64,000 bases of DNA, taken from assembly GCA_950295325.1 (NCBI GenBank), contig OX485806.1, positions 27,156,001 through 27,220,000 of the forward strand, read 5' to 3'. Below are positions 5,338 to 55,110 of this stretch, piece after piece. The notes below the pieces were generated by a model. It saw only the letters and a list, made by a program, of their open reading frames with translations, was not told the DNA's origin and made no database searches. Both the position numbers and the translations under genes were made by a program. Source of the stretch: Polytrichum commune. Taxonomy: Eukaryota; Streptophyta; Polytrichopsida; Polytrichales; Polytrichaceae. Numbering within the stretch: the first letter of the stretch is position 1; each line of letters begins with the position of its first letter.

Positions 5338-6232
5338 ATTGGACACCAAAACATGCTTCAGGTTCAAATATGGTGAGGAGTGCGATGCTAATGACTAATG
5401 AGGAAATGTTCAAGAGTTTGGATATCTATCATAGTTTTAAAAAAATAAAGAAGGGTTAGTCCTATACATCGTTCAAAGGGTACTGATGACACAAGCAATA
5501 GATTTTGCAATTTTGAAAAGGAACATGTTTCTTGTAAAATAAAATACATGAAGTTCATGGTTTGTAAGGTAGTCGTCAAGAGAATGTTGTTAATATTACC
5601 ATCAACAAATTTTTCCATCCTCACACACAACTTACAATATTGATGGGTCATGGAGGTGGTCATTCGACGTAGCGGGGAATCATATTCATTGGGTGCTTAA
5701 ATAAATAAATAAATCTTCCATCTTTGTCTAGAAACTTGCAAAATTCAACAACAAAATTAGAAACATTTTATGAGCAATTCTACATCCATTGCTTGAAGAA
5801 TGGTGTATGCTGTTAATCAAGGCTTTGATGTTGAAACTTGTTCCAAATATGAATTAATCAACAACAATCAACCTCATAACGTGACCCAAACTTGACAAGA
5901 TAGAGGGTTTGTGTTGCACTTATGATCCGGACATGTCATCATCTTGCACAATGTATGGTAAGTTGCCCAAAACATCGGGGTTTTATGTCTCATGTCAAAG
6001 TTGTTACATGGCTGAAAAATTATAGTCAACAATTGCATTATAAAACATGTTGTGTATGAGTTTTCTTTTGTGTCAAAGCTATTCAAGATAGATAGATAGA
6101 TAGAAACTCCGGTCCATGTTTCAAAGCTATTCAACTTATAGTGGTACAACCCAAAAACAATCATGAACGAAACAACAATCATCATGCTTTCAAACCCTAA
6201 CTATGAAAGTAATGGGGGAGGTGATTGCTTAA

Positions 6233-6249
6233 CCCTTAAAAGAGGTTGC
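6233..6249. repeat. piggyBac left terminal inverted repeat
   Basis: CCCTTAAAAGAGGTTGC directly follows the TTAA at 6229-6232. The first 15 bases are identical to the right end in inverted orientation. Confidence 0.93.
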
Positions 6250-7109
6250 CCCTTGTTGGTGGGTGCATGTAGAGCCCCAGTATTTTGGGGCAGAGGTGCA
6301 TTTGGCTGCCTCTATAGACAGCTACCTGTATCCCACTTGATTGCAACTTTTTTGTGAGGGTGGGCCCCGAAGTGTGGATGATAGCGGAGAAGTTCTTTCT
6401 TGAAATGTATATGCTTTGAATTACTGTTACATTTCCAACTCCGATGGGGTGCGGTTGGGTTGTGGAAATGGAGTACGTATCCGAACCGCATGTATACGGT
6501 CTGTGGTGGGTACTAGACGTACGCTGGACGCAAGCTGGGGTGCGTCCTTTCTGTCCGACGTCACGCCAAACAGGGAGTCATCCAGTGCCTTTCGTGACCG
6601 GGTCAGCCTGTATCCTACTCCAACCGTTCTGTGAGGTGACCTAATGGACAAGGACCATGTGCCACATGGACCAATGGGGTTCGACTTCTGCAGAGTGGCG
6701 TGAGGTGAGTCCATGTCCCACGACAGCGGCATCAGAAACAGTTATGTCTGTGCATATATCTGCGGCACGCTGGTTTCGGTGCGTGACGGCTATGCAAACA
6801 CTCTGCATTCAGGTTGCGATGCGACATTTCAGATGTGCAGGAAATGACTTTACATATTGAAGTTGAATACAAATGTTACATGCCAAACTGCAAGTGATTT
6901 CAGTGCCAAAATACAGTGATCCGTGTTGTGCCTCCGGGATGGCAGCACTCTGGCTCTCAGCGCTATGCCGGAACAAAATCCCATATAAGTACGAGCTATG
7001 TCCAAAACTACACAAATTCTTTGTGTTCGCTCGAGCTACATCTCGCAGCTACGTGCCTGAACTATGTACAAACCGTGTCTTCACTGTGTCTCCAGCGACG
7101 CCCACCCGT

Positions 7110-7546
7110 TCACAGCTTCGTGACCTCGAATTGATCATCACCAACCAGAGTGAAGGTCACCGTGTCGCCGATCTTCAGTTCATTGGCGGTACAAAACCCC
7201 GCCCAACCCAAAGTGAAGCAGCAGATCGTCTGCTTGCCAAACGTTCGCGTTGCAGTCTTCACGTTCCATGGCATCAGCGGGCCGTGTAGAGTGTACCAAA
7301 TGCCGTCGAACCGCTCCACTCCATGAGTGCGCCAGAACAACGTTGGGACATCCTGCGCCCACCCCCTTGCACTTACAATTCACGAACTGTGTACCAAATA
7401 CCCTAGAACGCCAGAATGAATGACGACAATTCCGTGACAGGGGGGGGAATAATATAGGCACAAAATTTCAAGCCTACCTTTACGGCAGTAGATCCGTCAG
7501 CAAACCTGCCATCAGGGGAAGAGGATTCAAGGCCAAATCTAAATTC
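7110..7546 (-). CDS. 3' exons of a B3-domain gene carried by the piggyBac element (partial)
   Basis: Two phase-0 exons can be read: 7546-7478 (acceptor TTCCAG, donor AAG|GTAGGC) and 7352-7110 (acceptor GCGCAG, stop TGA at 7112-7110). The last exon encodes a segment ending FTLGWAGFCTANELKIGD, VTFTLVGDDQFEV and TKL. This matches the second half of the plant B3 DNA-binding fold: a 'GW..F...N.L..GD.v.F.L......F.V' pattern, preceded by 'DG.W'. B3 proteins are plant transcription factors that bind DNA through this barrel. The first strands of the domain and the N-terminus should lie upstream (about 7.6-9.6 kb). I see several candidate exons there, for example one ending CCTCAG|GTACGT near 8196, but could not join them in one frame. 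The gene is in the same orientation as, and downstream of, the transposase. It is either a captured host gene or an established element gene; which one is unknown. Confidence 0.6.
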
Positions 7547-9996
7547 CTGGAAATAGATGGCACTTCTTCATTACAGGAGGACACAGACTGTCATATACGA
7601 AAATCACGGTAGGGCACATAGACCAATCAACACCGACACTGGAAGTCACTAGTGAATGCGGTTCATTGATTCATTGATTGACTGATTCATTGAAACACAA
7701 ATTTAACGTAAATATAATGTGTATGCAACAATAACAAGGGACATATGGCACTCACCAGTGTTCCATAAACTACAGAATGTCCCCTCGTGCATAAGCTGTT
7801 CGTCCGAGGGAGCGGTATGGAGCAAACCAAATGATCAGAACAATATGATCAAGCAATAGTTGATAAGTATAGATAAAAGTGTGAACCCTGTCCCTAACTA
7901 AACTCAGCACATATATCATATATAAAACCTCCAGTCAGAGCAAACATACATGTAGAATAATTGATGAAGAGATTTGTGCTGGTATTTATGGACTAACTCT
8001 GTGATTAAACACATATGTCTAATCGTCATTGACACATATTGCTTTGTTTCCACTTCCATAGGTTATAGGTGGTGCTAAGTATGGATGCAATACACACAGC
8101 TCAGATGAAATATCATTTCAAAACGTGTTAGGGTTTTGGGCAAACCACCACCTGTCCCATCTAACTACACCCCCCGAACAACAAATCGTACGTACCTGAG
8201 GCGGTGCATAGCGTTGCTTATAAATCTCCCGAGCTTTCAATTAGCACTCGTCTATGAGAGTGACATCCCCTACCGAACACCGACCAAGGTGCTCGCATGT
8301 GCTGCTACTCTGAGCACGATCATGTTTGGCACAACTTTCACTGCAATTAACCCCAAATAATCCCAATCAAGCAGCCAGTCTATATCCATTCCTTGCCTAA
8401 AAAGCTTGACAAGAAAGAGCACATAGCTTTTGTCAGTCTTTAAAATCGGCCAATCATTTACATCCAGTTAATGCCACCACTTGAGGGTATTTGGATCTGA
8501 AATCTCATTCTCACCATACACAGCCACAGTTGGGATACAATTTTAGTCTTTGGTTGATAAGATCTGTTGCAGCTGCCTTCCTGTGTGACAAAGTTGCCAA
8601 AGTCAGCCAACAATGCAAATTCACAATGCCAGTGCCGTGGACCCACAGCAAAAACCCGCTGTCATTGAACAGCAAATGAGAACCATAACTAATAAAATCT
8701 CCACACACCTGGAGGGTTAGTGCAACCCTGTGAACGGAAAGGACCCCATGCACAATGTCTACAATACCTATTCTGAACTACAAATTTGACCAAGGGTACA
8801 AGTACTCTCCAAAGCAGTATATCAGCCCAATTGCTATTACAAGCACATAATTGGGGAATGGATTTTGTGCATGATAAATTACCAGTAGCAGTCAATAAGA
8901 TTGTATGGGCGGTGAAGCTCCTCAAACACATGCTGCGCTCCTCCAACACTGTCGGCGACTGATGGCAAACTTTGGTTGCTCTCTGCAAATTCACATGACC
9001 AGAAATGGTTGAGGACCGATGGCAAAAATAACCGGTAATTGTGCTTCAAATTTAGACTTATCAAGTACATCAGGTAGCCCGTCAGTGAGTCACTATACAT
9101 TATGATATCCAGCGGCCAAAAGGGCAGGCGAATGGACTTCTTCTCACAACAAGGTCGTAAACCAGAAATAGTCTGCCACTATCACACTCACATTTGTAAA
9201 GGCCCGCGCCAAAATGATGTTCACATCCACATTGGTGTAACACCTCGGGACGATCTGTGAGACGTGGCCCACGCGCAAATTATCTGCACATAAATTGGAA
9301 GCCCACGACATAAGAGATGAGCAGTTATTCTACAGGCACCAACTGCCCAAGAAACCTATGACATGAAGGTGCGAACCCACTGGAGTGCATATGCCGATCC
9401 CACGGATAGAATAGCATAAGAACTCGTGACACCTTAGGCAAACATAACAGACGAAACGGCTACAACAGAACACATGAGGTAAACATTTACAATGGAGTGC
9501 ATTTACAAGCAGAAATGGTGGCCTAAGTACAAACAAAGACGTGACAGAGGAAGCTCTCCTAGCCGTCAAAAAGGGCCTTGACTGAGTCACTATGGTCCGT
9601 CATCAAGGCCAAAAAGTTTCCTAAGGGAGTCCAGAAGCGCATCGAGGACACTAAAAAGGATGGGTGACGGAGCCCAGGCGATCCGCAGGGGCCTGTTCGT
9701 CTACGACTAAGCCGGCAGTGAACACTCCAATGTCACCTCTGCTCCGGATATGATATGTCCAGCAAAAAATCAAAAACTCGCGACGCATCGGACGCCAAGC
9801 ACAGTTCATATTGAGGATACTCAAAGCGACCAACGGCGGAATCGGTCTGGGATTGTTTGTCCGCACTGGCTCTTCGCGGAATCCACGACCACGGGGAGAT
9901 CCACACGCGCTTCAATCCACGTCTGCTGCGAAGCTCCTTCCTGTACCAACATCACACTTCTCACACATATCAGATGTGAGACAAGCACCCCCCAAA
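7547..9996. other. piggyBac interior with unresolved exons
   Basis: This stretch lies between the transposase stop and the B3-type exons. It has no long open frame. On the minus strand there are plausible short exons with good splice sites, such as one starting after TTAATTGCAG near 8342 and one after TTTGTCACACAG near 8580. They may be the 5' part of the B3 gene, but the frames do not join without a stop, so I leave them unassigned. Confidence 0.35.
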
Positions 9997-12900
9997 CTAT
10001 AAGCTCTCGTGATGTGCCTGGTAACAGGATTCCGGGCACATCCACTTGTTTCCGCAAGAGGTGCAGAACCACTTCTGCACCCGGCCACAGATCACACAGC
10101 TGCGCTTTAATTTTGACCGCCGCAGCGTGTGGACAGGGAGGCGGCGTCGAGGTCTTCGTTCAGGGGGGACACGAACTCCTTGGCGGGCATGTATCGCCTG
10201 CATGGCAAGGTGCTTGCCGACCGCGATCTTGAAGGCCAGATGTGAGGTTACGGGCAATCCGAGGTCTTCCATTTGCTTCACCCAACACACGTATGAGTTC
10301 ACCATTGTCTGGTCCACGATGAGGTGGAAAATTTTCACCCACCACTTGTGGCACCTCAGCTGCGATGAATAGTTGCCACGGAGCTGATCCGTGACATCAA
10401 CTCCGCGCATGTACTCGACGTACTGCCGGTGCATGGGGGAGGATGGCACCATCAACTGCCCTGGAAGTCCCGGTATTCGTCGAAGGACCTTACTATTCGG
10501 CTCCCACGGGGCGGCTGCGGTGCTCAACAGGGTCACCAGCTTCTTGTCCTGCCAGGACACGACGCCCATTTGGCGATGGACATGATTCCATATAACCATG
10601 GACCCCCTGACAGTAGAGTCAGGCTCCCGATACAGACCACCAGGCAAGTTTTTGCTGGTGCGTCGAACAGTACCCGTGGCCCATATCCCCTTGCACATTA
10701 GCTCATGAAACAGGTTCACACTTGCGAAGAAATTATCAATCACCAAACAGTGCCCCCGGTTCTCCAATCCCCTCACCATCCGTTCGACCACGTGGTAGCC
10801 CAAACCATGAGGCCCTGCCCCTGTTCCTTCACCGAAGTAGACCTCCATCTGCCAGACAAACCTGCTCTTGGAGCTCGCCAACAACCACACCTTAATCCCA
10901 AACCTCACAGGCTTGTCCGGCATGAATTGCCTAATGAAACAATAACGGCCTTTGTAGGGGATGACACACTCATCCACAGTTATCTCCCTCTCGAGATTGT
11001 AAATATCTTTTGAAACGTTTACAAACATTTCAACAAGCCATCGTGTCTTCGCAATCCTGTCAAACCTAGGGTCACTCACATCCCTCACTATGGTGGAGTT
11101 ATCTACTAGATGCAAACAACGCATTATCTGCTCCCACCTCCCTAGCGACATGATGGACGAGATAAGAGAACAATACAAGAATGGCTGGCTACGCATCCAA
11201 TACTGCCTCACGCTTGGGAGCCTTTTGCATCCCATGAGGATACAAATCCCCAACCACCCCCGAATGTCAGTTCCATTCACATCCTTCCACGCCAGGCCCC
11301 CCTTTGTGCGTGGCAACTCATTATCAGTAGGAGGCAAAACTGCCCTCGCATACCTGTTGGTCTCTAGTACAATTCGATCCACACAGGCATCAGTCCAGTA
11401 CAATTCAAAAACCGAATGTGGTAGAGGAATTCCCGTGGGTCTAGGGCACTTCAAACCTGGCGTCGGGCCCGTGAAGTTGTCACGGGTTCTAACGAAGTCC
11501 ACGCTGCTCGAATTCCAAGACTCCTTCCTGTAGTATTCAGCCAGCTGAGCAGTATCCATGTGCACGGGTGTGAATGAGTCCGGGCTCATGCACCACTGTT
11601 CGAGGCCAGGTGAAGGGGGTTTACTCTCATCCAAATTGTCGACATCGAAATCTGAGTCTGAGCTCTCAATGGTGTCACAAAACTCGGGTAGCCACTCTTC
11701 GCCACTAGAGTCCGCCGACAATATTCCCGTCTCAACCCCACCGGCGGTTTGCACTGATGTGTTAGAGCAATGCAGATATTCGGGGAGCCCAAGACTTACC
11801 TGCGGAAAAGTGTCTCTTGCTGTCGAGTCTTGAGTACCATCGACCCCCTCAGTATCGGAGGGGGCATCGTAATCCGCGATGGGGCAGCCTCCTGGAATTT
11901 CGGGTATCACCTCCACGTCGATGTTTTCAGCTACACACTCCGTTAGGCCCGGCCCGGTGCCACTCCCCACTCCGCTCGCATTCTCTCCCAAAAGCCCGCT
12001 GTCACTCAGTCCCGCGACTGCCCCTCCAAGAACACCGACCGAGTCAGGCACGGGGCTGAAGCAATGCTGCCTCTTCCACCAGCCGTAACCGTGGCCCCCC
12101 TCGCTTCCGTAGGCACGCACCTCTGGCCCATCTGCAACGCGGACGTTCTCCTCATTCAGGTGGCACTCTCTGTCATACCCCCCTAGGTCACACAGCACCA
12201 TCCTCTTGCCAGTAGAGGCATGCACCCCCTCCCCGATTACATCCCCCTGCGTCCAAGAAGGTGTGTCGCCAGTGTGGAAAGAATGCTCACTCAGAAATCT
12301 ATTCGGAACAAGAACGGCCCATCCAGCCCGCCTACAACTCCACTGGACATACGTCCCTTGGAAGCGGTCCTGCATAATACCAACCTCAAGAAGAACCGGC
12401 CTCTCCAACGACCCGCCTGGATGTGTAGCGCCGAAGCCCGTGTGCTTTGAAATTGGAGCTGATGTCCTCCACGCGTCGTCGCGGAACACGGACTCCCAGA
12501 GGTTGACATTTAAGGTATCCATGCTGCCAAGCGAATGTTGCGATTCAGGCGCCACAATGTCGTCCAGGCCCACATACCCTTCAACGTCCCCCAACACCTC
12601 CCAGATTGTGTCGTCGTTCACCCTTTGCTGCTCGTACTCTGCTACTTGCATTGCCAAGGCGCGCGTCCGAACACCATCAGTGAGGTTGGGCTGGAGTGCT
12701 GGCGGCATCCATGCACGCGGTCTCCTGGGCTTGGACCACACAAGCTTGCCCTTCTCCTCCCGCGTTCGTCTTGCACTTGCACCCCGCTGTCCACCTGCAC
12801 AGCGACGGAACAGTCACACTTGCTCATGCCCAGATGAAGAGATTGCACATGCAACAGCCACACTTGCTCACGCAAAATTCAGGAGATTACACATGCCACA

Positions 12901-15900
12901 GTCACACATTCTTACAATGCAAAATTGACAAGATTACACATGCCACAGTCACAGTTGCTCAAGCCTAGATGAAGAGACTGCACATGCAGCAGCCACAGAT
13001 GCAAACAATGAAAAATTGACGAGATTACACATGCCACAGTCACAATTGCTCAAGGCCAGATGAAGAGATTGCACATGCAGCAGCCACACATTCAAACAAT
13101 GCAAAATTGACAAGATTACACATGCCACAGTCACAGTTGCTCAAGCCCAGATGAAGAGACTGCACATGCAGCAACCACAGATGCAAACAATGGAAAATTG
13201 ACGAGATTACACATGCCACAGTCACAGTTGCTCAAGGCCAGATGCAGAGATTGCACATGCAGCAGCCACACATGCAAACAATGAAAAATTGAGGAGATTA
13301 CACATGCCACAGTCACAGTTGTGCAAGCCCAGATGAAGAGATTGCACATGCAGTAGCCACACCTGCTCATGCAAAATTGACGAGGTTACACATGCCACAG
13401 CGACACTTGCTCGCATACCTCTCGAGGAGATTACACATGCAGCAGCCACACTTGCTCATGCACCTTTGATTGTAATTACACATGCCACAGCCACACATTC
13501 TCATGCACCTTTGAGGACCTACCTGGTAACATGACTTACCACGTTCGGGTGCCGGCGTGGAATCAGGAGGTGGAGGCCCGAAATCGTTTGGAGCATCGCT
13601 CTCCGGCATGGGCGTCTGCAGCGTCTGAGGCGTCAGGTTGGACAATCCGCAAGCCGTTGTGGTCACCTTCTTCGATCTCGAGCTCCTGTGTGGTTTCGGT
13701 GTAGTCTCCCCCCCCTCTGCCAGCGCCTTGCACTGCCGCTCCTTCCTCGGGCGTTTCAAGACTGTCTTCGAATGCGTGACGGGAATCTGCGTGCACTGTG
13801 CTATGTCGAACCCCTGTGACGCATCCGCCGAGTGAACCTGGAGCAACGGAGGCACAATTCCCTATCCGGCCAGTCAACGCAAGTGGTGAGAACGTCTGAG
13901 GTACATGAAATGGACAGGGAGGAGGATGGAAACTGAAACCTAAACTCAGCCCTGCGCATCTCACATCAAACCCCATTCACAAATGCCACATCCAAACGGC
14001 CACACCTGCACTTCGTTATGAGCTTCTCACAACCTCACGCAGAGAACAAAGCACAACCAATTATCAGTGTCCGGGTCCTGCTGCTGGAAGCCTAATGCGA
14101 ACTGCACCAACACACCTACATACCCTGGCACTATAACGGTACTTACCTTCCTCGCCCTGGGCATCCGAGGATGCTTTGGCACCGGTGTCGGGTCCACATT
14201 CTCCTTCCTTGTGTCCTGGCCTATCACGCACGCATCCAACCCCCCCTGCAGGGTGTTCCACGACAGCAAACATTTGACTAAGTCCCAGGCGTCCACTACA
14301 ATTTCAATGTCACCAGGGCACAAACATGTCAAACTGTGCACAATGTCCCGGGCAAGTTCAGAAGAAATTGATTGCAATTACCTTGGTCTGCCGTGTCAGT
14401 CTGTGCTTCGGTGTAACACCTCCGCTCTCGGGCGCCGTGAGCGGAAGCTGTACTCCCGCTGGGCATAGCTCCTGGCCATAATTAATATCATCATAAAATC
14501 AATGACCAACATTTCTGCAATGTCTACCTCACTTGGGTTGCCAATTCAGTCTTTAGTTCGTTTGTATGATATGTGCAAGATCTCCTATGTCGACTTGTGT
14601 GATGGATTAATGATAAACTATGCATTAACTAAGAGTGGAATTAGCGACGTAAAGATGTAAAACCCCGAAGGGCATAAAAGGCACATGTGTATTGAATGAT
14701 TACCTTTTTCTGACGCTTCTCAGTGTCATAGGATATAAAACACAGTATGAGTATGTGACAGTTAGCAGATCTGCAGAGGAGGCTGGAGCTGCTATAATTC
14801 CACCATAAAATTCAGACCGCGTATGAAAATCCCGCATTATCAAATTGAGGATTCTAGCTCTCATTAAACGTCTACCCCTTTCGCACCTCTGTGTTAGTGC
14901 ATGACAGGTCTAGGTTTGCAGAAACCATTTAACATTGTTGGTGACATCGTGAATAACAAATATCTTAACAATGCAAGCCACATTTTTCCCGTGTGGATGT
15001 GCTGGAATCATATGGATGCATCAGCAACCACAGAGGTTCACAGTGACACGAGGTTGGAGGCACACAAGTTCAAACTGGGATACTTTTCTACGTTGCATGT
15101 TTGAAAGCCTCGTCTACAGCCCAAAAAACCAGGTAATTATCTTCAACACTGCATTGAATGTGCGCAAGCAATGCATCAGAAAAAATCAAGGGGACACCTA
15201 AGGCTCCGATATGAATTACAGCTCAGCCGAACTATTCCTGGTCTTCACAAATAGGCGGCCGACAACATCGGACATTTAGATCCGCACACCGGTTGGGTGA
15301 CATGAGCCACATGCACAATCGGGTCGTTCACACCAAGCACAAGTGCACTAAACCACACATTTCCCGAACACTGAGCAAATGACGAGCCTCGTTTGCCTAA
15401 ACTCAGCAAGTTCAATCAACCCCAGACCAAAAACACCCACTTAAACCCAGAACCCGGGGCAATGTGTGTCCAAGTGCAGGAGGACTGACCTGCGGAGATC
15501 TGGTCGGCGTTGATCCGGAGCGGTCCTGAATGAGTACCGGCTGTGACCCTCCCCTTGCCTGCCTCGCGAGTCGCTTCATCACAAACAGCCTCCGTCGGAA
15601 AAGCGTGTCCACGCAGAATGCCCGTGACAAGGTCGGGGAACCTCCTGCGATCACACCAACCTAGGATACGAGCCGCGTGCCTGTACCAAAGATAGCGGCA
15701 GCGCTCCTGGACCCCAAATGCGCCTCTCCGATTCCACCGGCTCGGGCGTGGCTGCGCGAGGAGTGTGCTCGCATCCAGGAGTCGAACAGCCCGTGTTGCG
15801 CCTTCCTCTGAAACCCCCTGATCTGCAAACCAGCGCTGCAAGACAGCCTCCACAGAAATGCGTTCAGCGCTCTTACACAACCCACTATTCTCCATGTATG

Positions 15901-16105
15901 CTGGTCCCACCCAAGGAAAACTCTTTTGGAATTGCAAAGACAAATCACCTCCAGGAAAACAATCTGGATATACTCCAATCCACCGCCACCAAAACGTCCT
16001 GTCATGAGACCGGGACGCCATTTCCCGCCTATCCGAAAGTCGAGTACCCAAGACGTGGTGGTCACAATCGGAGCAGCCGCCTCTCGAAATCCAACTGCAC
16101 GTCAT
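9997..16105 (-). CDS. piggyBac transposase (five-exon model, DDD catalytic core)
   Basis: It cuts and pastes the surrounding element at TTAA. Proposed exons, high to low: 16105-15490, 14471-14382, 14295-14147, 13837-13540, 12794-9997. All junctions are GT-AG and every phase agrees (1, 1, 0, 1), giving 3,951 nt or 1,316 residues. The last exon alone is open for over 910 codons. In numbering from the codon at 12741, the core has ITVDECVIPYKGR (D590), LVIDNFFAS (D669), VSWQDKKLVTLLST (D732) and RGVDVTDQLRGNY (D782/D785), the conserved aspartates of the DDE_Tnp_1_7 family. From about residue 880 a CxxC-x7-CxxC-x5-C-x3-C-x3-HH pattern matches the piggyBac cysteine-rich finger that binds the terminal repeats. 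No stop or frameshift interrupts the core. The core exon is near certain. The three middle exons are likely. The first exon (16105-15490), with its own ATG, is joined only by phase and splice-site logic and could be a separate gene; without it, an ATG at 14466 would start a protein of 1,109 residues. At over 1,100 residues it is much longer than typical 500-700-residue piggyBac transposases. Confidence 0.85.
12815..13515. repeat. 91-bp minisatellite inside a transposase intron
   Basis: A tandem array has a 91-bp period, clearest at 12895-13375 and fading at both sides. Each unit consists of two related halves of about 45 bp, one containing TTACACATGCCACAGTCACA and the other TGCACATGCAGCAGCCACA. 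The array lies entirely between the donor at 13539 and the acceptor at 12795 of the transposase gene, so it is intronic. The short open frames it produces, full of Cys-x-Cys peptides at 91-bp spacing, are by-products of the repeat and are not called as genes. Confidence 0.9.
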
Positions 16106-16345
16106 GATGCAGCACCTATTCCCGAAACCCTATGCTCGTCCCACACAAGTAAAGCTCCAAAGGGAATTGCAAACACAGTCCACCTACAGGAAAACAGAAT
16201 GGCAATACTCCAATCCGCCCACCACCCAAAACTGCAATGTGATGGCAGCGGCAATTCATTTCCCGCCTGTCCCAACATCGCGTCACCAAGGACGTGGTGG
16301 TCACAATCGTGAGAGTCGCCTCTCCAGATCCAACTCGTCGTCATG
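15867..16345. repeat. 239-bp tandem duplication at the start of the transposase first exon
   Basis: Two diverged direct copies (about 15867-16105 and 16106-16344) share blocks such as 'cgtggtggtcacaatcg', 'atactccaatcc' and 'catttcccgcct'. On the minus strand each begins with an ATG followed by an S-W-I codon series and a DCDHHVLG peptide. Only the inner copy stays open into the long first exon; the outer one stops at 16102. The duplication therefore offers two alternative start regions. Confidence 0.75.
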
Positions 16346-16774
16346 ATGCAGTCCGGATGCCCCTACAAAAAAAATAAAAATCCAAGAACCCTAAACAACG
16401 AGTGGAGAAGGTGGAACGCGAAGCAAAAGCGGGGGAATGCCCGCGCGCTCCCCTTGAGGCACGCCTGCGTCCTTGCAACAACCCCACCGGCCGAGGCGGT
16501 CACCAACGGCCACCAGGAAATACGCACGGTCGCCACGCTGACAGTGCACGCAGTACTACTCTAGCTACCGTATGCTCCAGGAAGACGTAGAAATACACAG
16601 AATCCGTCGCTTATCTCGCGCTGGACATCGCCACAAGGCTCCGAAAATTAGTCTGAAAATAAGGGAGGCATTGTCTAGGTAGTGCCCACATCTCCGTAGT
16701 TCAAAGGTTTGTCCAATTCGGTGAAGGTGGATCACCAGCAGCCCAAATCAATTAACCGTAGGCCATTTTGGCCT

Positions 16775-16791
16775 GTAACCTCTTTTAAGGG
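16775..16791. repeat. piggyBac right terminal inverted repeat
   Basis: GTAACCTCTTTTAAGGG is the inverted copy of the left end with one mismatch at position 16. It is followed by TTAA at 16792-16795. Confidence 0.93.
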
Positions 16792-16795
16792 TTAA

Positions 16796-18155
16796 TGACT
16801 ACAAAGTAAGGTCATGCATGGTAATAGTGACAACCATCCCAATGCACCATTAGAGCAAAGTGGAGTGAGTTTTTTTTGGGTCAAAAGTTTAATTTAGAGA
16901 AAAAGTTACTCATTCCTTTTGGCCCAACAACCACTACAAAGCCTTCAACACACAAAATTAAAACAAATAGATCTTTGTTGTGCCCATAATTTGATTCCAT
17001 TGATTGATTCCATTTAGAAACAATTCTCCACAAAAGAAATTTGAGGCAATTCATATTGTGCATTTGGATTGGAACTATTGACCAATACATGTGCCTATTG
17101 TCGTCCATCCCACCATATATATATATATATATGAATGATGTGTTGTGATCCTAACCGCTCATTTATCCCCTCCACATTGTCAAGAATTCATGGATTGTGT
17201 TGTTCTTGCAAGAAGCAAAGAGGATGGGTATGAATGGCAAGTAATCAAATCACATAGTATTGGCATGTTTCATTCTAAATAGATCATATTCAAGTGCAAC
17301 ACTTCTCACAATTTTTTTAATTTGTTATTAAATACATTGGATGTACACTCTAAATTATGTAATATCACGCTTGTGACAACCAAAGTGTACGTGACATTAA
17401 GGACATGTGTGGTGTTAGTATGGACGTGTGATGAAAGAGTGTTAGTGTAGCATGTGACACTATGGAATACTTACAATGATGACATGATGAGCATGAACAT
17501 GTGATTTAAATATTTGGTGGTTTAGTTGAATGATAAAAACCCATGATATATGAGAGGGTAACGTGACAATAAGGAGTGAGATTCAAACTAAGAACATCCG
17601 TTCTTTAGGGTTATGGGACATAAGAGAACGAGTGACATTAGGGCTCAGGGGGGGGGGGGGCAATACTTAAAAAGTTAAGGATGTAGGTGCGAACAACCAC
17701 TATTTTATAGGGAGGTATTACTTTCAATTTTTTTTTTTTTTTCACATGCTATCATTATGTAAATTTCTACTTTTGGTTAATAAAATAATGGCTTGCATTA
17801 CTTATAATTCCAAATTACCTATTATTCCATACCCTATAGTACTTTAAAGATGTCTAGTGCCATTTTTGATATCCTATATTACTCTTAAGTCGATTTATAA
17901 TTTTTTGCCCCCATGTTTTTTAAATACCCTATCATTTGTTCGCACGTATATTGCTACTCCAACCAATGACTACCCCCCCCCCCCCGAGCATTAGGGGGGT
18001 TGATATTATGGAGTTTGAAGCATACTTGACCCTTGAGCACATTTAAAAAACACCCTATCGTCCCCCTGCATATATTATTTCGCAATGGTTCCAACAACAT
18101 TAGCACATGGGTTTTCTAGAGTTCATGCGCAAATGCCGTATGGGTTGTACCATGT
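16796..18155. other. Gene-free AT-rich DNA right of the piggyBac insertion
   Basis: I see no coding potential. It contains a TA microsatellite (about 17114-17132), a 13-G run (17648-17660) and a 13-C run (17973-17985). Nothing else is recognisable. Confidence 0.7.
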
Positions 18156-42969: not shown

Positions 42970-45900
42970 TCAGGTTGTTGGACTGGATTGCTTTCCATCG
43001 CGTTTTTCTCTCTTGACTAAAGAGGAAACCCGTTTCAAGTGCTTTCGCACTTCGTGAAGCAAGCGATGTTCTTTCCAGTAATGCTGAGCTGGAGATACCA
43101 CAAGCTTGGCAGCTCCAGAACCAACAGCATAGAGTGGGCGTATTGGCCCTGCACCTTGGACAAATTTGAACAACTGATTTTGGAAAATATCTTGCAGCCA
43201 TTCATTCAGGAATATCTTAGAAAAGCTGCTCAACCCATGTACACCTTTAGCCTTGACATGCTTTAACTGAAGCTCGATTCCCTACACATCACCACCATGA
43301 CATGAACAAATCCATCAACCACTGCTGGAAGGAAAGTTTGTGGCCGTTATGTGGTCACATGGCCTAATTAGGAACCTATATTTAAGTGGTATATGCAAGG
43401 CTTGTTGTTAAGAACAGACACCAGCCTATGCAAATCACTTGAAGAGAGAGAATCTTCACTTTTTACCCTATAGATTTTGCATCTCAAATCCGACTCTGAA
43501 ACTTGAATTCACTTTTTGTGTGATTTGGTAAAGACAATTCCCAGCCCCACCTAATGGCCAGAATTGTCTGTGAAGTTGGAAGTGCCCACAATAGGGCCAC
43601 ATACCTTACAATCAAATACCTTCAACAAGGAGAACCAAACAAATCCTAGCCAACATGGTAAAAGGTCGTACCTTCCACTGGACCATGTTCACAAGTTCAA
43701 CATAATTGCCTGCTCGTAGGGCTGCGAGGTCCACCCTCCGAGGAAGATAATCCACACGAATGTTGAAAGGTAGCACCTCAAACATCTGCACTCCCATGCC
43801 ATCATCGTTTTGTCAATGATAATTTACAACTTGCAATTTACCTAAATATGTGCCAAAGTGCTTGGATTCCAAACCTGGTCAATGTCAGTCAAGAACTACT
43901 TACCATCCATGAGCACAGTGGCAAATTAAGACGTATTTTGTAAATTCAGACTTACAAGGGACACAGTCAAGACATTCTCTTTGAGGAGAAACGTACATAA
44001 CCCAAAAAAGTACTGTCAAGATTGTCTGAAGTGTGTTGGGTACATGATTATAGCATGCACAATGATTTCACGTACCTGAAAAAAAGGTAGCAAAGGTTCT
44101 GTAGGAGAATCAGTGAGATTAGAGCTGACTGAAGGAGTGGAACTGAGAGAAGATCTGCTTGAGAGGTTCAAATTCTCCTCCAGCAAAGTTCCTTGACCAA
44201 CACCAAATTGTGAAGAGAAAAACTTGGTGCAGAAGTCAAGGTGGCGCTGATCGAGATGGAGTCGAATTGGCAGCAATGCAAAAGACACCCTGTTCAAGTA
44301 TAGTTCAGATAAATTAACAAGGACATGTGGTCGAAAGTGGAGGGCAATACCACAAAATACTTTGTTACTATATATCACTTTGATTATAAACCAACAGAAC
44401 TTGAAATTGCATATAACAACTCGAATCTTAGATCAGGCAGCCAGAGCATTGATATGCACAGCGGTGATAGGAATAAAAGAGATGTATGACACAAAGAGAT
44501 GCATAGGGTGCTTGTTCCCAGCTCATTCTAGACCCTTCCTCGCATATCCAAGAAGAGTTTCCATAGTGAGGGCTCAAACAAATACCTACCTGTATTCTTC
44601 CAAAACATCTGTAGGATCTGGACGAACAGCATCCATGTCAATTTTCAGGGCTTGAGATGATGTCTCTCGCGGTCTAGATGAAACATAGTGATAGCCCATG
44701 ACCTGCAGACAAATAGCATGCCAAAGAAGCCAAATATACGAAACTGTATCAAATTCAAAAAGGTCAAACAATAACAGACACAGGTGGCCAAGTCAGAGAT
44801 GTGTCTGTCAGCACCAGGAGACTTTATAATATTCTCATACTTTAAAACTCTGATGCGCTGGTTTTCAAATTTCCAAAAAACAACCCATTATACAGCAGTT
44901 TCCAACATCTTTGCAATGCAGGATATATGTACAAATAAGAGGGACAAATAACATACCGTTTTCCAAGGTGCATCAGGGCTGCAATCCAGGATGCCAAAGT
45001 TGGAGACTGTCACTGTCAATCTAGAGGCATATAACCCAATTGAAGGGAATGCATCATACTGCACATTGATTCCATTTAAGAAAAATTCTAAGCACACATT
45101 TGGCTTCCGTCCACTATCACCAACTGCTCCTGCCAAGTTCCAATCTGACTCCTCATCACCAAATGGCCAGTCAGATCCTTCATGAAGACGCCATTTCAAG
45201 CTCATGTTCTGCAGAATCATGCGGCCTACTGACTTAGGATATCTCTTTGGAAGACTTGGCTTGACCTCTGGTTTGTCGGCGGGCACATGGTCGTCTACAA
45301 TATTCAAAACACTGTCTTCATACCACCCACCCCCTGAAGCCCCTCCACGGATTGAGGTTCTGGTGGGCTCGCTCACAGATCTTGGAGAGTGTTCAGAGTG
45401 TTCAGAATTCCCACCAGGAGTATGTTCAGAGACATAATCTTCAATGAATTCTTGAATATCCTTGTTACTCAAACCAGAGCTTTCAAGATCCAAAGGCTCT
45501 GATTGCAGATCTCGCAAACTTACAAATGCATTCTCAAGAACACCGTCCAACAAGTCAGGGGTTTCAATAATATCTGCAGCCTTGACTTCCATTTTATGCA
45601 TTTTTATTTGCACACTTTGTTGCTCCATGGGAGGAGCAAAGAGCTGCTGTAATTGGGCTACCAGTCTTTCACAGGCTGCAGTAGTATCATGACAAGTATC
45701 AAAGCAAATCTCATTATTTCCACATTCAACCTCCCATTTCCGGGCATCATCTCCTCCAATCTTGACAGTGACTCCCATGGAAGTCTCTTTAGCAACCTGC
45801 CAACACCAGCACTGATTAATGCTTTAACAGAAAGTATCTCGCATATATATATCACTGCACAGGTACAAATGCGACCTATGAACATTTGACATATAAAGGA

Positions 45901-53989: not shown

Positions 53990-55110
53990 CTCTACACTAG
54001 CCTCACTAAGGTTGCAAACATGAACTTAGAGAAGCACGTGATTGGTTGCCACCAACATTGATGTAGAGACCACCTCACAGTTGTGGCTGGTACTTTGACG
54101 CCGACACATAGACCACTTCGCGGTTGCAGCTTGTACCTTGGCGCCACCTCCCACAAGAAAACACATTGTTGCAAATAACGGAGAATGCAACACTGAAAAC
54201 ATTAATGTGCGATGAGTCAACAATGCCATATACAAAACTACCCCGAGTATCCTTGTCAATTCACCTCTTGTGCATATCCACAAAGGCACGATCGTCTACG
54301 TCTTCATGTAAACCAACAACTTGTTCATGATGGAGCGCATGATTAATTGTTTGCTCCTCCAATCGATATTCAAACATGAGCCTTGCGCATTAAAGTACCC
54401 CATATTGGAGACAACTATCATTGTATCCAAAAAACATTGGAGGTGTTTTGCATTTGAATATCATAAGGACTCGTCATGATTTTCCATATCCATATTGAAG
54501 CCGCCTTCCTCACATCCATACCCATGGACCTCATTGGAATCACCCATGCAGGATTCGGGTATAATTGGCCACTTTTGCAAATGTGGAACAAAGTGTTGGC
54601 AAGGCTAACGCCCAAGTGCTTTTTCATAAGAAAGTGTGCCCACTGATGGGCCCGTTGCAAAATGTTGTCATGCGAGAGACTCACGTGATTGTTCAAACCA
54701 ACCTTCCAAACTTCACGTACTCCATTTTACCGTTGTTCATGTCATTTGCCGAAACATTATAATGAACGAACTCAAAATGCTCTTCATCATTGTCCTTCAT
54801 ACAATTTTCCACCAAGCCCAAGAAGGTATGCAAACCCTCGTCCCTGGACTTCTTGTAAAAAATGGCATGACCCATTAGAGGACTCACATCCCACCCCAAA
54901 CAAACCTTAATTTTCTTGCTCAACATTGCATGAATAGTAAAATTCCCATTGACGGCCATTTGAAGATGCTTGTGGGTCAATGCCCCCCCCCCCCTCTATG
55001 GAGCGCAATTCTACAATACATTTTTCCTCCATAAACCTACTCAAGTTCACAAGAAGACTAATGTCAATATTGGTGCCTCCCATTGTGATCGTCATTGAAA
55101 CCTCAAAATG
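53990..55110 (-). pseudogene. Decayed coding region of unknown function
   Basis: Consecutive minus-strand open stretches (55095-54995, 54980-54693, 54696-54418, 54320-54130) follow one another in changing frames, with coding-like composition. They include IDISLLVNLSRFMEEK, CLGWDVSPLMGHAIFYKK and LGVSLANTLFHICKSGQ. A 12-C run (54983-54994) marks the first frame change and another lies near 54690. I recognise no family. It is either a host pseudogene or part of a transposon protein. Confidence 0.45.

Follow-up and report, generated by a model that had tools for sequence, protein, structure and literature searches.

A 64,000-nucleotide stretch of the Polytrichum commune genome (GenBank assembly GCA_950295325.1, contig OX485806.1, positions 27,156,001 to 27,220,000 of the forward strand; hereafter the window) contains a genuine piggyBac transposon at positions 6229–16795. 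The element belongs to a recently active moss family with a captured, selected second gene, which encodes two B3 domains. We consider it probable that the family represents a two-gene piggyBac in which a host B3 gene was taken up and retained as an accessory DNA-binding factor. Such a two-gene design is unusual for a piggyBac-type element. A preliminary description, made from the letters of the window, had proposed a complete, probably young transposon with a passenger gene; the genome searches reported here cover the 408-Mb assembly, which comprises 64 contigs, seven of them chromosome-sized (labeled C1–C7); the window lies on a contig of 59 Mb. The PsaD protein encoded in the assembly agrees with a moss host: it scores 301–316 bits against 8htu, 7ksq, and 6l35, which are Physcomitrium chains, and at most 290 bits against the remaining single-domain chains, whereas the nominal best match, 9vfj, is a triple-repeat chain whose individual repeats reach 159–164 bits. 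Seven chromosomes would likewise suit Polytrichaceae.

The 10.6-kb element is bounded by TTAA and by perfect 15-bp terminal inverted repeats (TIRs, CCCTTAAAAGAGGTT). They begin with CCC, as is typical of piggyBac. TTAA and TIR together form a 19-nt inverted repeat, which is the sole pair with 100% identity among the 25 of 27 pairs listed for positions 5700–17300, and the ends are thus those read in the preliminary description. Across the genome, the TIR pattern without TTAA (the inner 15 bp) occurs at 38 places, all adjoining TTAA, compared with two for a reversed control, and it is therefore more than a chance motif. TIR plus TTAA, allowing up to two mismatches, match 65 places compared with 15 for the reversed control. 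Each end continues into some 500 bp of conserved terminal DNA (Table 1), which suggests long functional ends. Some of the alignments cover shorter stretches; those of the right region include two derivatives resembling miniature inverted-repeat transposable elements (MITEs), one over 320 bp. Beyond the TIR, left and right ends have no 8–9-bp word in common (in at least eight left and seven right copies) and share three words of 7 bp.

The unbroken transposase core claimed for the element is confirmed. The open reading frame (ORF) at 9997–12813 (minus strand, 938 amino acids) matches DDE_Tnp_1_7 (PF13843; E value 1e-68, 232.7 bits, cut-off 22.4) over nearly the full profile (positions 2–349 of 349), and its PDB matches are the piggyBat transposase (1e-30) and the T. 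ni piggyBac transposase (3e-23). Three aspartates align to the T. ni chain (codons 10972–10974, 10735–10737, and 10396–10398), as does a fourth (10387–10389), and we take these to be the catalytic residues. A Cys-rich C terminus, read by eye from the sequence, runs CVICG...CTSCG...CPESC from protein position 1201. Comparison of copies yields a sequence-based gene model, spliced for the window copy only, in which five exons on the minus strand would encode 1233 amino acids with a single stop at the end; the four predicted introns have GT–AG borders and matching phase.

Exon 1 of this model contributes a conserved helical N-terminal domain (window 15488–16021, minus strand). The domain has 33 matches in the genome, 17 in the family of the window element (family A), 14 upstream of transposase loci of other piggyBac subfamilies, and two orphan copies with no listed transposase nearby (C1:3704310 and C2:41818759). 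Its presence upstream of transposases of other subfamilies marks it as an old part of these proteins. Pfam returned no credible match (best E 0.15), and Foldseek found no match in the PDB at E ≤ 0.001 for a low-confidence model of the domain (mean pLDDT 55).

The search for other copies suggested in the preliminary description recovered at least 18 family A elements, including that in the window, on six of the seven chromosome-sized contigs. The transposase search listed 51 matches: 20 at 74–100% amino acid identity on 15 family A loci and 31 at 34–53%, which represent other piggyBac subfamilies. Since 49 of 246 candidates were scored, the family counts are lower bounds. Three further family A loci (C3:14.6, C6:37.9, and C7:18.66 Mb) carry the ends and the B3 gene with no listed transposase match. 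Both ends were matched in 15 of the 18 elements, and the end-to-end length of these copies is 3.9–33 kb. A length of 10.6 kb, previously regarded as unusually large, is ordinary for family A because 13 of the 15 measure 7.4–18.4 kb. Among the 17 other elements (referred to by c numbers), 13 were compared over their complete or almost complete length (no second end was matched for c2 and c13) and four (c3, c6, c14, and c15) by their end stretches only, together with the two MITE-like derivatives. Their aligned pieces are 66–85% identical to the window element. Copies c12 and c17, candidates for autonomous elements, have both ends, a stop-free transposase exon 5, and an open B3 gene.

The putative passenger ORF (7110–7379, minus strand) matches the plant B3 domain (PF02362; 3.2e-9, 37.1 bits, cut-off 30.1). 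It corresponds to the last exon (B3b) of a gene that follows the transposase stop, before the left TIR is reached, in transposase orientation. The passenger gene is thus present, but only its last exon is found in the window copy, and the element described as complete has both ends and a whole transposase model but lacks the first two B3 exons. Sixteen of 18 family A elements contain B3b (58–100% identity). In all of them its distance to the same TIR, which in the window is the left one, is 884–1050 bp, and it codes towards that TIR. Most other copies have two further exons upstream of B3b; the main exon of the first domain (B3a) is found in 15 family A elements (partially in c11) and at one weak host locus. 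The spliced complete gene is predicted to encode a protein of ∼270 amino acids with two B3 domains. Pfam finds B3 in two stretches in each of the five spliced proteins scanned (1e-14 to 1e-18, 55–67 bits, same cut-off), and B3 domains only. Exon borders are GT and AG in the copies spliced, save one AA acceptor in c8. All three exons could be placed in eight copies, six of which are open throughout, and the last two exons are open in nine of 12.

We compared nonsynonymous with synonymous divergence (dN and dS) in both genes by NG86, with pairs that are not independent of one another. Transposase exon 5 has a median dN/dS of 0.123 (0.093–0.149; 10 copies, 45 pairs), and seven of the 10 full-length copies are stop-free, c1, c4, and c8 having one stop each. 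The last two B3 exons have a median dN/dS of 0.347 (0.225–0.553; 10 copies without stops, 44 of 45 pairs usable); each of these 44 pairs has a ratio below 1, and their median dS is 1.04. Both genes look constrained by purifying selection, the B3 gene less so than the transposase.

The most serious alternative is that the B3 gene is passive cargo with no role for the element, a transduplicate of the kind found in Pack-MULEs. We regard this as unlikely, but several observations speak for it or against an accessory role. The B3 gene is missing from c5 and c16. The window copy is reduced to the last exon, lacking the B3a exon and the exon before it, and its positions 7438–8292 do not align with c1. 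The gene is therefore not needed in cis. Its frame is broken in c8 (one stop, in addition to the AA replacing one AG), c10, and c14 (a frame change close to its end). Selection is relaxed relative to the transposase, in a set that includes c14, whose frame change raises its own dN. The second B3 domain has no PDB match at E 0.1. Finally, known B3 sites are not clearly enriched at the ends. CATGCA, CACCTG, TGTCTC, CACTTG, and TGTCGG are B3 motifs; the first four show no enrichment within 600 bp of the termini, and TGTCGG exceeds expectation on the right side alone (19 occurrences in 15 copies compared with 6.3 expected), where it is present about once per copy, a pattern that shared descent can explain. 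No repeated known B3 site was found in the conserved ends. Passive cargo, on the other hand, would be expected to drift towards a dN/dS of 1, in contrast to the ratios observed, and would not account for the constant place of the gene or for the open reading frames in most copies. An accessory factor fits these observations better. The window copy has lost B3 exons 1 and 2, yet its transposase shows no decay, so this copy may rely on B3 protein supplied in trans or do without it.

Two candidate targets were rejected in the course of this search. A tandem array occupying most of transposase intron 4 in the window contains 27.3 CATGC per kb, compared with 2.9 in the flank; it was dropped as a B3 target because the corresponding intron has no more than 0–8.9 CATGC per kb in nine other copies. 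The strongest word of the left end, ATACGTA, is half of a near-palindrome and was hence scored twice.

Comparison with host genes points to the origin of the B3 gene. The B3b search returned seven weak non-element matches in the genome (E 9e-5 or worse), and the best host B3 genes are 30–47% identical to the element gene. The introns of the element gene precede an x-[ILVM]-P-x-x-F motif in both B3 domains. Six of the seven non-element loci were compared: at five of these six host loci an AG falls exactly at the intron position of both element domains, and at the sixth it is one codon off; an AG is expected at a given place with a chance of ∼1 in 16, and the shared position is read from sequence only. 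Capture of a plant host B3 gene by the family A ancestor is well supported, and the agreement in intron position argues that the gene was taken up as genomic DNA, introns included. A small tree with six host domains places the second element domain among the host domains and the first on a long branch; two of its 13 inner branches are well supported, and the host set was chosen by likeness to the second domain, ARF, RAV, and LAV references not being included. VRN1 is the sole PDB match of the first domain, at a weak E value of 0.083, and the donor was perhaps REM/VRN1-like. The whole-genome search, which is the better test for B3 genes beside other piggyBacs, lists no piggyBac within 1 Mb of any of the seven non-element B3 matches. 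No B3 match is present at four distant piggyBac loci (L032–L035) within the 2.8–6.6 kb examined downstream of the transposase; in family A the gene starts up to ∼5 kb downstream (in c1).

To define insertion sites, we joined the flanks of the window element and of six other copies at one TTAA and searched for the resulting sequences (40 of 1253 candidates scored). The joined flanks of c11 (C6:37.9 Mb) have an uninterrupted 144-bp match with 100% identity at C3:27781633, and those of c10 (C4:24.1 Mb) have 99% matches at several places. Both insertion sites lie in repeats, and the empty sites are paralogous and precise, with one TTAA. TTAA insertion is thereby shown for these two other copies. 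No match was listed among the scored candidates for the window element and the remaining four copies, and none of the repeat matches of the window left flank, searched alone, extends to the junction. The empty-site check envisaged in the preliminary description therefore succeeded for c10 and c11, but not for the window copy. The host repeat of c11 recurs at short spacing (C6:37.908, C3:27.78, C7:22.85, and C5:45.26 Mb) and is either satellite-like or a repeated gene array.

Copy c11 arose from c12 or a near twin by internal deletion: two stretches of 1675 and 2090 bp are 100 and 99.95% identical, and the two copies reside at different places. Over 3.77 kb there is about one mismatch between c11 and its source, so family A moved very recently. 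Copies c15 and c17, also at different places, are 98.3% identical over 2 kb. The window copy is not part of a recent burst, since the nearest compared copy, c1, is at a transposase dS of 0.42. This value dates lineages and not the insertion, and dating the window insertion by copy divergence was abandoned. The window transposase has six nonsynonymous and 26 synonymous private changes (18 and 19 in c1), and with this bias to silent changes it shows no decay, in agreement with a recent insertion, although no date follows from it. The proposed youth of the window copy has only indirect support: its private changes are biased to silent ones, the distance to its nearest paralogue concerns the lineages, and its own empty site was not found among the candidates scored.

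We consider it very improbable that the copies are old insertions under host selection, i.e. a domesticated transposase and B3 gene instead of mobile selfish elements. The full-length copies are indeed diverged (dS 0.42 and up among the 10 compared), yet most are stop-free and their median dN/dS is low. However, 15 of the 18 elements terminate in TIR and TTAA on either side, and the near-identical pairs at different places, the empty sites of c10 and c11, and the MITE-like derivatives are all at odds with domestication, whereas selection through transposition competence accounts for the constraint. An assembly artifact or a contaminating contig, which the GC content of the element might indicate (44–57% in 1-kb windows, well above the 35–36% of bordering windows), is practically negligible given the family A copies on six of seven chromosome-sized contigs, two copies in host repeats whose empty forms occur elsewhere in the genome, and the B3 intron position common to element and host genes.

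We thus favor a mobile two-gene piggyBac and envision the following mechanism. The family A transposase would recognize the 15-bp TIR and probably the ∼500 bp of conserved terminal DNA, cut at TTAA, and reinsert at another TTAA. An ancestral element would have taken up the genomic DNA of a host B3 gene with its introns, and the element would have retained it as an accessory DNA-binding factor. By analogy with TNPA, VANC, and PIF/Pong ORF1, the B3 protein might bind the element ends or promoter and either aid transposition or counter silencing. We infer this accessory function, the B3 target, splicing in vivo, and expression from the sequences compared.

Family A shares with T. ni piggyBac and Myotis piggyBat the TTAA target, a short TIR starting with CCC, the DDE_Tnp_1_7 core, the aligned aspartates, and the Cys-rich C terminus. 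In contrast to these elements, it has a predicted 1233-amino acid, five-exon transposase with an extra helical N-terminal domain, a length of mostly 7–18 kb, conserved ends of ∼500 bp, and an additional gene for a dual-B3 protein. The element B3 gene resembles plant B3 transcription factors in its PF02362 domains, the host intron position, and the weak VRN1 match of its first domain, and it differs from them in being transposon-encoded and in specifying a dual-B3 protein of ∼270 amino acids. En/Spm (TNPA), VANDAL (VANC), and PIF/Pong (ORF1) are two-gene plant DNA transposons that encode separate DNA-binding proteins. The combination of a transposase with a separate DNA-binding protein would be common to these systems and family A, although family A belongs to another superfamily and its DNA-binding domain is unrelated.

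Other piggyBac subfamilies in the genome (L032, L033, and L035) are 34–41% identical to family A at the amino acid level over the aligned part when the loci are read individually, and 39–45% identical in the genome-wide transposase search, and have the same catalytic core. L034, which represents a group of 564-amino acid proteins, is ∼38–39% identical; a related N-terminal domain is found upstream in the other subfamilies. This second group comprises five open frames (C2:7057416, C4:26413584, C1:43458044, C3:11875773, and C1:11754502) with nearly equal scores to the query and a related N-terminal domain 2.2–2.6 kb upstream, and it is perhaps another young family. A search for relatives in viral contigs gave two pattern matches, neither of them confirmed.

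PiggyBac is a leading genome-engineering tool and has been studied mainly from animals. Among the open-access papers listed in our searches, none describes a piggyBac that carries a B3 gene, and none is a dedicated study of land-plant piggyBacs. In these papers, plant piggyBacs appear in passing remarks or a repeat table only: plants are named among the hosts of piggyBac-like elements (PMC8086355, PMC10813416), and a fern repeat table lists a small PiggyBac share (PMC6890710). A further paper lists PiggyBac in a haptophyte alga (PMC5963040). A B3 domain in a transposon is not without precedent, because one study reports it in some long terminal repeat (LTR) retrotransposon consensuses of Aegilops tauschii (PMC9289625), but this precedent concerns another class of elements.

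More tentatively, a land-plant piggyBac lineage may have turned a host B3 factor into its own factor, one that binds the DNA of the element and thereby promotes expression, transposition, or desilencing, a possibility to which we give somewhat less than even weight. If true, the piggyBac superfamily can evolve two-gene systems, and there is an added route for plant regulators into mobile DNA. Within the open-access literature searched, family A would then be the first piggyBac described to encode an accessory protein that binds DNA sequence-specifically, and it would clearly exemplify a transposon co-opting a host transcription factor and not the reverse. Family A, whose transposase is laid out differently, would also be a candidate piggyBac system native to plants. 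The features of the window element are compiled in Table 1.

Table 1. Features of the piggyBac element in the window (positions refer to the window)
Feature	Position	Strand	Remarks
Left end: TTAA (6229–6232) and 15-bp TIR CCCTTAAAAGAGGTT (6233–6247)	6229–6247	+	
Left conserved non-coding terminal region, ∼505 bp	6229–6733	.	15 of 19 other left ends align, two MITE-like derivatives among them
B3 gene, last exon (exon 3), C-terminal B3 domain; exons 1 and 2 absent, gene truncated	7110–7352	-	PF02362 and family comparison
Transposase exon 5: DDE_Tnp_1_7 core, C-terminal Cys-rich stretch, stop	9997–12794	-	
44/47-bp tandem array (91-bp double unit), sixteen copies, CATGC-rich	12811–13517	.	most of transposase intron 4
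Transposase exon 4 (model)	13540–13861	-	conserved in copies, GT–AG, phase matches
Transposase exon 3 (model)	14147–14245	-	copy comparison
Transposase exon 2 (model)	14382–14458	-	copy comparison
Transposase exon 1 (model): conserved N-terminal helical domain	15490–15895	-	
Right conserved terminal region, ∼510–540 bp	16257–16795	.	17 of 17 other right parts align, two MITE-like derivatives among them
Right end: 15-bp TIR (16777–16791) and TTAA (16792–16795)	16777–16795	-	same as left end

Outside the element, the ATG2 gene described as its neighbor is more distant: ATG2 domain matches are located at 44019–45823, ∼27 kb from the element. At 54421–54726 (minus strand), an ORF matches Replitron_C (PF21860; E 1.7e-6, 28.8 bits, cut-off 27) and possibly represents a Replitron remnant.

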